From Curtobacterium citreum (GTDB taxonomy: Bacteria; Actinomycetota; Actinomycetes; Actinomycetales; Microbacteriaceae), in assembly GCF_006715175.1 (NCBI RefSeq), contig NZ_VFMQ01000001.1:992001-1056000 (forward strand): 64,000 nucleotides of DNA, read 5' to 3'. The notes beneath the pieces were generated by a model that saw nothing but the letters and a program-made list of their open reading frames with translations, ran no database searches and was not told the DNA's origin. The position numbers were made by a program, and so were the translations under genes. This document shows, piece by piece, positions 1,983 through 60,383 of this stretch; within the stretch, counting starts at the first letter, position 1, and each line of letters opens with the position of its first letter.

Positions 1983-3314
<1,332 letters not shown>

Positions 3315-57359: not shown

Positions 57360-57481
57360 GACCCGAACCTACGGGCGGGACGGCGAGCGTGTCCGTGAGG
57401 CGCGTCAGCCCCGAAGGCGGGGAATCTCGGTGTCGTCGGCACGCCCTACGATTCTCCGAGGATCACTCGCCAGACTCATGC

Positions 57482-57500
57482 CCGATCAGTGGCTGATCGG
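57482..57500. promoter_or_regulatory. Inverted repeat before the 57516 operon
   Basis: CCGATCAG-TGG-CTGATCGG is a perfect 8-bp inverted repeat, ending 10 nt before the GAGAGGG ribosome binding site region and downstream of a TACGAT hexamer near 57445-57450. It may be an operator or a small leader hairpin that hides the ribosome binding site. Confidence 0.5.
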
Positions 57501-57515
57501 CGCTGAACGAGAGGG

Positions 57516-58790
57516 ATGACCTTGGCACGTAGACGCGGTTTCTTCGCGGAGATCCAGCACCAGCAGCGGCTCGCGGATCAGCGCGCAGCTCGCGCCCGGC
57601 GGGAACGTGCTGCCGCGCTTGCAGCCGTGGAACGTTCTCGCGTCCAGGTCGAGCGAGCTCGTGCACAGGCCGCCCGATCGGCGGCGGCATCCGCCCGGGC
57701 GACCGAAGCAGAGCGCAAGCGCGCCGAACGCGAAGCGCAGGCCGCCTACGCGGAGGCCCGCAAGGCTGAGGCTGATGACCAGAACGAAGCGCTCAGGCTG
57801 ACGAACGAATCGATCGCGAATCTCCTCTCGGCAACGCTCGAGGTCGACGACTACGTCGACCTCGAGCAACTGAAGCGAACGGCCGAGCATCCGCCGTTCC
57901 CGCACCCGGATCTCGAAGCGCCGATTCCTCGCCCGATGCCTCTGGCTCTCCCGCCGGCACCGATGTGGCAAGAGCCGCCCGCTCCGAAGGGTCTGTTCGG
58001 AAAGCGGAAGAAGCACGAAGAGCTGAAGCAGGAAGCGTGGGCTACCTTCCAAGCGAATGGAGCCGAGTGGGAGCGTCTCCGCGATTCTCTTCCTGGGCGA
58101 CAAGCAGAGGCGGACCGACAGTACGAAGGCCTCGAGCAGCGGCGCCGTGACCAGCTCGCTGCGGAGCGACGTCGCTACGAAGCGGCGTGCAACGTCCGCC
58201 AGCGCGATGTCGACGAGCACAACGCGGAGATCGATGCCCTCATCGCGGGGCTCGGGTACGGCGTACCCGAGGCAGTCCAGGAGTACCTCGACATCGTCCT
58301 CGCGAACTCGATCTACCCGGAAGACTTCGAGGTGCGGCATGAAGCGTCCTTCGACGCCGCTTCGAGCGAGGCGCGCATCCGCGCCGTCGTGCCGGCACCT
58401 GAGACGATCCCGACCGTCAAGGCTTACCGCTGGGTGAAGGCGTCGGACGAGATCGTCGGCTCTCCGCTCACCAAGAAGGATCAGACGGAGCGGTACGGGG
58501 ACGCACTCGCGCAAGTCGCCCTCCGCACGCTCCACGAGGTGTTCGAGGCTGACCGCCGCGGTATCGTTCAGTCGATCTCGCTCGAGGTCGGACCCGCCAC
58601 CAAGGATCCGGCGACCGGGCTCGACCGGTTCTTCCCCCTGGTGGCCGTCGGAGCCTCGCGGGAGCACTTCACCGGATTCGACCTTTCGGCAGTCGTGCCG
58701 TCCTCGACACTGCAGCACCTCGGTGCTGCGATCTCGAAGAACCCGTTGTCGCTCAGTGTCGTCGATCCTGGCGGGGTGCGCCGATCATGA
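57516..58790 (+). CDS. Coiled-coil protein resembling the N-terminal region of actinobacterial Mrr-type restriction enzymes, without nuclease domain
   Basis: A 424-residue protein. MTLARRRGFFAEIQHQQRLA starts a long Ala/Arg/Glu coiled coil (about 1-105). DDYVDLEQLKRTAEHPPFP, a Pro-rich linker and KGLFGKRKKHEELKQEA follow, then a second coiled coil (about 165-235). The alpha/beta domain (about 240-424) has VQEYLDIVLANSIYPEDF, VKAYRWVKASDEI, AQVALRTLHEVFEADRR and HLGAAISKNPLS. From memory, these blocks precede the Mrr nuclease in large actinobacterial restriction proteins; here the frame ends before any such domain. Codon use is less GC-rich than in the neighbours. The nuclease gene overlaps it (ATGA). 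Confidence 0.75.
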   Translation: MTLARRRGFFAEIQHQQRLADQRAARARRERAAALAAVERSRVQVERARAQAARSAAASARATEAERKRAEREAQAAYAEARKAEADDQNEALRLTNESIANLLSATLEVDDYVDLEQLKRTAEHPPFPHPDLEAPIPRPMPLALPPAPMWQEPPAPKGLFGKRKKHEELKQEAWATFQANGAEWERLRDSLPGRQAEADRQYEGLEQRRRDQLAAERRRYEAACNVRQRDVDEHNAEIDALIAGLGYGVPEAVQEYLDIVLANSIYPEDFEVRHEASFDAASSEARIRAVVPAPETIPTVKAYRWVKASDEIVGSPLTKKDQTERYGDALAQVALRTLHEVFEADRRGIVQSISLEVGPATKDPATGLDRFFPLVAVGASREHFTGFDLSAVVPSSTLQHLGAAISKNPLSLSVVDPGGVRRS

Positions 58791-60307
58791 GTACTCGACG
58801 GTTCAACCCGCCTCCGTCGTGGCCGCCGGTGCCGGCGGGATGGGAACCGCCGACATCGTGGGTGCCTCCCTCTGACTGGCCAGCGCTTCCGGCCGGATGG
58901 TCGTTGTGGATCGAGGACGAGCCGATCGATCCGGTGTTCGCTTCCGAGGACGTGCCGCCGCCGACTACGGACGCAACGGCTTCATCACCCGTCGCCGACT
59001 CACAGCTGACGGTGACGGAGATCGAACGCGACGGTGTCGTGTTCGTCGTCCTTCCGGTAGGGAGGGGAGCGGGATCCCCGGTCGTGACGATCCCGCGTTC
59101 GTCCTGGACTGGAGGCAGCGGTGACCGGCCGACGGTCGAGCCGTCCGAGGTGCAAGACCGTGCGATCGGCAGCCGGTCGACCGAACGTGCCGTCGTGGAT
59201 CCTCGGGATCAGCGGATCGCGTCGCTCGAAGCTGAGGTGCTGCGACTTCGCAGCAGCACGACGGCGCCGTCGAACGGCGCGGTTCCCCTCGATGATCAGC
59301 AGGTCCTGCAGTCAGTCGGGATCTACCGGTACCACCACCCGCTGGAGAACGCAGTCGCTTACAAAGATCGTCTGACCGTCATCGAAGCGGAGATCGCGGC
59401 GCTCGTCCGCGAGGGACGAGCGATCGAGCGGTCGAACATGTTCACGTTCGACAACTCGCTCGCCAAGGGGCGGAAGATGAGTGACGATCTCTCCAAGCTC
59501 ATGCTCCGCGCGTACAACGCCGAAGCAGACAACGCGGTTCGGTCCCTGCGCGCCGGGAACGTCGAAACCGCCAAACGACGGCTTGAGAAGTCACGAGAGG
59601 CCATCGCACGACTGGGAGCGATGATGGAGATGCGCATCGCGGCCGAGTACCACGACCTCCGCGTTGAAGAGGTCGAGTTGACGTCGGACTGGCTCATGCG
59701 GAAGCAAGAGGAGCGGGAACTCGAGCGAGACGAGCGTGCCCGACTGCGTGAGGAGAAACGCGTCCAGCAGGAACTCGAGGCAGAACGCGAGCGCCTCGAC
59801 AAGGAACGCGCACTGATCGAGCAGACGATCGAGCGCCTGCGTGAGAACGGCGAGGTGGACGCAGTACTCGAAGCCCGCCTCGGTCAGATCGACGCCGCAA
59901 TCCAGCAGAACGACTTCCGTGCGGCGAACATCCGAGCGGGGTACGTCTACGTCATATCCAATCGCGGCGCCTTCGGACCCGATGTCGTCAAGATCGGGCT
60001 CACTCGGAGGCTCGAGCCCTCCGATCGAGTGAACGAGCTCGGAGGTGCTTCGGTCCCGTTCCGATTCGACGTGCACACCATCTACTTCTCCGAGGACGCT
60101 GTGTCCCTCGAGACCGAGCTGCACCGACACTTCGCCTCTCGCGCGCTCAACCAGGCGAACCCGCGCAAGGAGTTCTTCTTCGCGACTCCGGCAGAGGTTC
60201 GCGAGGTGCTCATGCAGAAGGTGGGCGCCCTTCTCGAGTTCCGGGAGGACGCAGAGGCGACCGAATACCTGCAGTCTGTCGGGGCGTGGCCGGTGCGGGC
60301 AGCCTGA
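58787..60307 (+). CDS. DUF4041/GIY-YIG nuclease family protein (T5orf172/MUG113 type)
   Basis: A 506-residue protein. The N-terminus holds repeated Pro-Trp segments (PPSWPPVPAGWEPPTSWVPP and DWPALPAGW). A linker and a coiled coil with DQRIASLEAEVLRLRS lead to a DUF4041-like region (about 175-300: GIYRYHHPLENAVAYKDRL, SLAKGRKMSDDLSKLMLRAY, AEADNAVRSLRAGN). A charged coiled coil follows (about 300-375), then the GIY-YIG domain (about 385-480) with GYVYVISN, VVKIGLTRRLEPSDRVNELG, SLETELHRHF and ANPRKEFFF. GIY-YIG nucleases cut DNA or RNA. Translation is coupled to the preceding gene by ATGA, and base composition is shared with it. Confidence 0.85.
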   Translation: MSTRRFNPPPSWPPVPAGWEPPTSWVPPSDWPALPAGWSLWIEDEPIDPVFASEDVPPPTTDATASSPVADSQLTVTEIERDGVVFVVLPVGRGAGSPVVTIPRSSWTGGSGDRPTVEPSEVQDRAIGSRSTERAVVDPRDQRIASLEAEVLRLRSSTTAPSNGAVPLDDQQVLQSVGIYRYHHPLENAVAYKDRLTVIEAEIAALVREGRAIERSNMFTFDNSLAKGRKMSDDLSKLMLRAYNAEADNAVRSLRAGNVETAKRRLEKSREAIARLGAMMEMRIAAEYHDLRVEEVELTSDWLMRKQEERELERDERARLREEKRVQQELEAERERLDKERALIEQTIERLRENGEVDAVLEARLGQIDAAIQQNDFRAANIRAGYVYVISNRGAFGPDVVKIGLTRRLEPSDRVNELGGASVPFRFDVHTIYFSEDAVSLETELHRHFASRALNQANPRKEFFFATPAEVREVLMQKVGALLEFREDAEATEYLQSVGAWPVRAA

Positions 60308-60383
60308 TGAAGTGACCACCCCTGCGACGCGGGATGACGGTCGGACTCGCACCGTGCCTCCTCTCCGATGCATGCTGATACGC

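Follow-up and report, generated by a model that had tools for sequence, protein, structure and literature searches.

SNIPE, or PD-Lambda-1, is a nuclease that combines a DUF4041 domain with a GIY-YIG domain and whose anti-phage activity has been shown experimentally (PMC9519451, 2022; PMC13190303, 2026). It has been described as a single gene, the type protein carrying an N-terminal membrane segment, and it cuts the DNA of a phage while this is being injected and also binds the tape measure protein. As the 2026 paper reports, defence is abolished by a change of Glu414 (E414A) or by deletion of DUF4041, which promotes DNA binding, while a predicted membrane segment is present in 66% of SNIPE homologues and absent in 34% (PMC13190303). 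Since SNIPE without its transmembrane (TM) segment is reported to be toxic and to relocate to the nucleoid (PMC13190303), homologues that lack the segment would need another restraint. The Mrr-type proteins, known to PADLOC as 'type IV methyl-directed restriction enzyme' (model mREase_IV), are built differently, with a pre-nuclease region followed by a C-terminal Mrr_cat nuclease. Here we describe a two-gene module related to both, located in a stretch of 64,000 nucleotides of Curtobacterium citreum (contig NZ_VFMQ01000001.1, positions 992,001 to 1,056,000; hereafter the window). Gene 1 is a nuclease-less relative of the Mrr-type proteins and gene 2 a SNIPE homologue. With a probability of about two in three, and on the strength of sequence comparison, we read the module as a two-component SNIPE in which gene 1 would restrain and aim the nuclease in trans. 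Its features are as follows.

57516..58790, + strand: gene 1, 424 amino acids (aa), related to Mrr-type (mREase_IV) proteins but lacking the nuclease (open reading frame, ORF; PADLOC)
57540..57818, + strand: N-terminal long helices of gene 1, aa 9-101 (AlphaFold2 model)
57990..58013, + strand: GLFGKRKK motif of gene 1, aa 159-166 (a lead only, nine aligned columns)
58002..58256, + strand: second long helix of gene 1, aa 163-247 (AlphaFold2 model)
58266..58754, + strand: alpha/beta head domain of gene 1, aa 251-413, Mrr-associated region (PADLOC, AlphaFold2 model)
58773..58787, + strand: C-terminal GVRRS tail of gene 1, signature of the paired clade
58787..58790, + strand: ATGA stop/start overlap of gene 1 and gene 2
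58787..60307, + strand: gene 2, SNIPE/PD-Lambda-1 homologue, 506 aa (ORF, Pfam, PADLOC)
58802..58915, + strand: Pro-Trp-rich N-terminal segment of gene 2, aa 6-43 (predicted local distance difference test, pLDDT, 81-93 in blocks of aa 1-40)
59495..59662, + strand: DUF4041 (PF13250), gene 2 aa 237-292
59939..60211, + strand: GIY-YIG nuclease domain (T5orf172, PF10544), gene 2 aa 385-475
60110..60112, + strand: Glu442 of gene 2, aligned with the catalytic Glu414 of SNIPE

Gene 2 matches the PADLOC model PD-Lambda-1 (E 3e-97) and the Pfam families DUF4041 (PF13250; 79.4 bits against a cut-off of 27), T5orf172 (PF10544) and MUG113 (PF13455), in agreement with a preliminary description of the locus that had called it a DUF4041/T5orf172 GIY-YIG nuclease. 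Its residues 174-499 are 35% identical to a protein annotated PD-lambda-1 in phage PhiR26_1. SNIPE and gene 2 are alike in the order of DUF4041, a long helix and a GIY-YIG nuclease with a catalytic glutamate; Glu442 is invariant across an 89-row alignment (query included), and its pairing with Glu414 was obtained by counting along a pairwise alignment. Unlike SNIPE, gene 2 has no TM segment, begins with a Pro-Trp-rich stretch and is accompanied by a second gene. A TM segment was found in neither protein of the module; gene 2 has no 19-residue Kyte-Doolittle window of at least 1.8, whereas the PhiR26_1 protein has one. A mildly hydrophobic stretch begins at aa 84 of gene 2, and beta strands are modelled at aa 77-103 (window 59015-59095), between the Pro-Trp segment and the coil. 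The AlphaFold2 model of gene 2 (mean pLDDT 77.9) is less certain than that of gene 1 (mean 89.6, blocks of aa 11-70 reaching only 66-80).

Gene 1 is matched by mREase_IV with an E-value of 6.7e-36 over profile positions 26-382 of 544, and because the match stops at position 382 the C-terminal nuclease part is absent. A Pfam scan of gene 1 returned no nuclease and no Mrr_cat PD-(D/E)xK domain, and a hidden Markov model (HMM) built from the tails of 20 relatives found no Mrr_cat in the paired gene 1 ORFs, the protein of locus L059 that it did match being unpaired and full-length. The Mrr-type proteins thus have the pre-nuclease region in common with gene 1 and differ from it in their C-terminus, where they carry Mrr_cat and gene 1 instead ends in a short G[VI]R tail. 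Mrr_cat is C-terminal in six of nine distant relatives of gene 1 that were scanned. The idea that gene 1 is an Mrr pre-nuclease region deprived of its nuclease, put forward in the preliminary description, is therefore borne out both by the mREase_IV match and by the Mrr_cat-bearing relatives. The three remaining relatives (L044:4760-5851, L045:4825-6378 and L052:4396-5532) have neither Mrr_cat by Pfam nor an adjoining DUF4041, and may represent decay or yet other partners. In a further chain, L060:4333-6390, a region of the gene 1 type is combined with Mrr_cat and with TerD. Close homologues of gene 1 number 1301 at E <=0.001 among 7998 scored candidates; among the matches listed (120, query included), 109 are 400-440 aa long and none carries a precomputed Pfam domain.

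The association of the two genes is conserved well beyond the window. Among the genome_contigs loci, gene 2 lies directly downstream of gene 1 at all 12 that offer enough contig, out of 13 found (L019 is cut by the contig end and L020 has a broken gene 1), so the order proved constant in the survey of pairing. The records bearing the pair are titled Curtobacterium, Salinibacterium, Microbacterium and Rhodococcus; further ones are metagenome-assembled genomes (MAGs) titled Nitrospira, Solirubrobacterales, Peribacteraceae and 'bacterium', titles that may be wrong in the case of MAGs, and L014 (3.8 kb), the one with the least certain title, hardly differs from the Nitrospira copies in either of the trees described below. 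The pair is also present on a Kocuria plasmid. In a sample of 296 genomes of the class, searched for gene 1 with at most four candidates scored per genome, DUF4041 occurs in 23 genomes and a close nuclease-less gene 1 adjoins it in eight; conversely, the pair is intact in eight of the nine genomes with a close nuclease-less gene 1, and the ninth (L043) has an interrupted gene 2. In a phylum sample of the same size (296 genomes) the only complete close gene 1 is that of the window, the weak matches including two proteins with Mrr-type tails (L105, L106) and a divergent sequence (L104). The ATGA shared by the + strand ORFs 57516-58790 and 58787-60307, already pointed out in the preliminary description, has its counterpart elsewhere: of the 20 pairs in which gene 2 starts unambiguously, 18 show a stop/start overlap (four bases in 14, one base in four), a count that includes the window and the broken L043 and L047 and leaves out L018, L023 and L030, where that start is unclear. 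In L025 and L031 the genes are separated by 3 and 1 bases, respectively. At L043:3279-4458 the interruption is a transposase-like ORF, named by eye, behind the Pro-Trp segment; a different effector joined to that segment was considered for this locus and rejected in favour of the start of a SNIPE-type gene cut by the ORF.

Phylogeny gives a concordant picture. The paired nucleases form one clade (ultrafast bootstrap, UFBoot, 94), and so do the paired gene 1 proteins (84, or 97 with one long-branched Mrr_cat protein added). Across 21 loci, the distances measured for gene 1 are correlated with those for gene 2 (r 0.874), a value reached by 0 of 5000 permutations (top permuted value 0.33), and shared species history can lie behind part of this match. 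The gene 1 tree comprises 60 rows and excludes L009, L019 and L020 (duplicates or cut), L052 and two L047 pieces; L004-L007 never entered it, L089 duplicates L046, and nine of its 32 paired-clade rows are homologues whose neighbours were not seen. From the nuclease tree L009, L020, L047 and short matches are excluded; L062 and L063 duplicate PhiR26_1 and phage Mask in it, and L039 is represented there by the C-terminal piece of its split ORF. The G[VI]R tail follows the same division: all 22 paired gene 1 rows have it and none of 28 unpaired rows (27 distinct) does, the entry for L050 being read from its sequence, where no G[VI]R follows the head domain; among the matches listed, G[VI]R falls within the last 12 residues of 120 of 120 close gene 1 homologues. 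The comparative evidence indicates that gene 1 and gene 2 have evolved as a unit, and it makes the G[VI]R tail a better candidate contact than the Pro-Trp segment.

At least six natural proteins go further and join the two parts in a single chain, in which DUF4041 and GIY-YIG come after the gene 1 part. They emerged from a search with the joined proteins (among the matches listed, 120 of 450), in which 118 new proteins were scanned and eight had gene 1 matches, those of P0316 and P0318 being weak coil matches only. Fusion P0244 is 893 aa long, and fusions P0245-P0249, from five contigs, measure 762-835 aa, P0246 having 12 member sequences. Both trees put the six within the paired clade, in two distinct positions: P0244 groups with L021-L028, and P0245-P0249 form a group of their own (UFBoot 100) elsewhere. 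The latter five of the six fusions show no Pro-Trp stretch and retain GVRRS or GVRKS within the chain; in P0244 the Pro-Trp stretch is present and G[VI]R is absent. Because the fusions place the gene 1 part ahead of DUF4041/GIY-YIG, gene 1 occupies the position of SNIPE's N-terminal adapter region. A separate protein, P0337, lists DUF2510, SNIPE domains and TerD in one chain.

Gene 1 and gene 2 would most likely act together against phages, because they are tightly linked, gene 2 is kin to SNIPE, its helper is Mrr-like and the two have been fused into one protein. In the two-component SNIPE that we propose, gene 1 would be a dedicated partner, descended from the part of an Mrr-type protein that precedes the nuclease, and would replace SNIPE's N-terminal adapter, in trans, in both position and function. 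The two proteins would be produced together through overlapping translation and would bind each other. Gene 2 would serve as the nuclease subunit, its DUF4041 binding DNA, and perhaps the phage tape-measure protein, and its GIY-YIG domain cutting, while gene 1 would hold the nuclease off the host chromosome and bring it to, or release it on, incoming phage DNA.

The preliminary description had envisaged the sensor half of an Mrr system joined to a different nuclease in trans; of this, the Mrr kinship and the conserved partnership with a nuclease stand, and the sensing is conjectural. If gene 1 were a true Mrr-like sensor of some foreign DNA feature, such as modified bases, that activates the nuclease anywhere in the cell, the module would be a type IV-like system with an exchanged cutter, and this would suit both the kinship of gene 1 with the part that precedes Mrr_cat and the replacement of the lost Mrr nuclease by an unrelated GIY-YIG enzyme. 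We nevertheless regard it as unlikely: the head domain gave no clear PDB match and no known DNA-reading fold (the matches were weak and exclude nothing), no result here shows what the pre-nuclease region does within Mrr-type proteins, and DUF4041 is itself reported to promote DNA binding (PMC13190303). The toxicity reported for SNIPE without its TM segment (PMC13190303), together with the position of gene 1 as first gene with an overlap, might also be accommodated by an antitoxin-like gene 1 that is protective only, the nuclease finding phage DNA by itself. Unpaired SNIPEs without a TM segment exist, though, and both the fusions and an origin in a region linked to a nuclease are more in keeping with a permanent functional component than with an antidote that can be separated, which makes a purely protective role decidedly improbable. 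Least credible of all is that the two genes are co-inherited in a mobile segment and act independently; patchy presence at one site and the scoring of the halves as separate defence families by PADLOC would allow it, but the stop/start overlaps, the tree match, the fusions and the confinement of the tail signature to paired gene 1 argue strongly the other way.

Several observations do weigh against the two-component SNIPE. In the class sample 15 of the 23 DUF4041 nucleases have no adjoining gene 1, and since 14 of these 15 (all except that of L038) are likewise without a strong hydrophobic segment, gene 1 is not generally required for SNIPEs that lack a TM segment. Two loci of the phylum sample, L102 and L103, hold short N-terminal gene 1 fragments in genomes with no DUF4041 match over the cut-off. 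The support for the gene 1 clade (84-88) is moderate, fusion P0244 comes from a single metagenome contig of 3.1 kb, and P0245-P0249 are known from their protein sequences. Named Pfam domains in the neighbourhood of the pairs belong mostly to ordinary genes, and the PADLOC evidence from the same neighbours is weak because no control set was scanned.

The nuclease half of the module belongs to a known family, SNIPE/PD-Lambda-1, which the preliminary description, knowing of no account of such a system, missed; for the pair itself, a search of the open-access literature (subscription papers mostly lie outside its scope) found no description. In that literature DUF4041 is named in three papers, PD-lambda is named together with Mrr only in the founding PD-Lambda-1 paper, the single paper to mention T5orf172 as well as Mrr has them as separate entries of a table, and the main text of PMC13190303 makes no mention of 'Mrr', 'two-gene' or 'DUF2510'. 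SNIPE was published as a single membrane nuclease. The module offers a testable answer to how homologues without a membrane segment spare their host, since it comes with an identified partner gene, a tail that is a candidate for the contact, and fusions that occur in nature. It also points to the pre-nuclease regions of Mrr-type proteins as a portable module. More tentatively, SNIPE's discrimination between self and non-self by membrane location may have been exchanged here for a detachable Mrr-derived sensor, so that two recognition principles would serve one nuclease family and sensor and cutter would have been joined more than once. Current annotation splits the pair: the PADLOC models assign the two genes to two separate systems, and JGI labels many gene 1 homologues 'restriction system protein' despite no listed nuclease domain.

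The Pro-Trp repeats at the N-terminus of gene 2 are present as the preliminary description had them, but the suggestion that they form a docking segment specific to gene 1 is not supported. The segment occurs in most paired nucleases examined and is missing from the paired L018 and L031, which have only a short N-terminal stretch with neither Pro-Trp nor TM segment, and it is found on unpaired SNIPEs (L026, L027, L032, L033 and L039) as well as on predicted membrane proteins. Of twelve Pro-Trp matches in 98 class genomes, three belong to SNIPEs (G000, G143, G189) and one to what remains of gene 2 in L043; six are found at either end of diverse proteins that have hydrophobic segments (L091, L092, L096, L098, L099, L101), and two are doubtful (L097, L100). 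Pfam scans of L091, L092, L098 and L099 gave no domain named for the segment. A membrane-proximal address is a fair guess, and a lead only. Unpaired SNIPEs of actinobacteria that begin with Pro-Trp or DUF2510 have the same nuclease domains as gene 2 and often the same Pro-Trp segment, but no gene 1 alongside; DUF2510 stands in place of Pro-Trp in L024 and in the SNIPE of phage Mask. An FG-basic motif resembling GLFGKRKK of gene 1 is present in cis at 11 of 20 unpaired SNIPE loci as against 0 of 20 paired nucleases, and homology is not claimed because only nine columns align. One unpaired SNIPE-type gene (L039:4174-5863) is split over two overlapping frames, by a frameshift or an assembly error. 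A divergent gene beside the pair at L028 (L028:7578-8918) combines two Pro-Trp repeats with Mrr_cat (E 4.1e-12), placing the segment on another nuclease.

The module is flanked by a PEP-mutase family gene and an aminotransferase gene, which share one contig, in opposite orientation, in 53 of 60 genomes of the genus Curtobacterium. Among these 53 the module is present in four (gap 2953-3051), the site is empty in 46 (136-298 bases) and other cargo occupies it in three. The stretch missing from one empty site was delimited approximately.

57379..60324, no strand: approximate stretch absent from the empty site of the same-genus genome G015 (G015 intergenic region compared with the window by blastn, plus gap survey)

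Other cargo seen at this site (L064:2499-6473, L065:1690-2639) consists, by eye, of dehydrogenase, aldehyde dehydrogenase and transporter genes or of an AraC-like regulator. The three other copies in the genus are 68-72% identical to the window in gene 1 and 67-68% in gene 2, as compared with 80-94% in the flanking genes, and one of the four carriers, G056, has a broken gene 1. The preliminary description had noted that both genes are less GC-rich than their neighbours, and this is confirmed in total GC (66.7% in gene 1 and 64.9% in gene 2, against 72.4-73.2% in three neighbouring genes) and at third positions (0.76 and 0.78, against 0.95-0.96). The module is the least GC-rich stretch of the window: only five of 613 windows of 2.8 kb are equally GC-poor or poorer, and the poorest (start 57700) overlaps it. 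The preliminary description had been prepared to abandon its reading for lack of Mrr similarity, random pairing, or presence in all relatives at the same locus with normal composition; what was found is Mrr similarity, non-random pairing, an empty site in most relatives and an odd composition. No sigma-70-like promoter was found in the module region, and an Rfam scan of the window gave one match, a distant tRNA.

Gene 1 has no match at E 1e-3 in 50,697 phage records, 34 of which hold a gene 2-type nuclease at E 1e-5. Seventeen plasmid records match gene 1; only the Kocuria one covers 80%, and nearly all others are annotated restriction endonuclease. Fusion P0246 matches 178 plasmid records, the one over 80% of the query being the same Kocuria pair, and a scan of viral_contigs found no relative. 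Around 17 pair loci, 172 neighbour ORFs were picked and 139 scanned, among which 100 PADLOC families matched at E 1e-8; when neighbours were scanned singly, five of nine had no PADLOC match. An NsnA-like protein (PADLOC) stands beside the Kocuria pair, and directly behind gene 2 of L021 lies an ORF of 1157 aa (L021:5842-9312) that matches the DpdE and ZorD helicase models.

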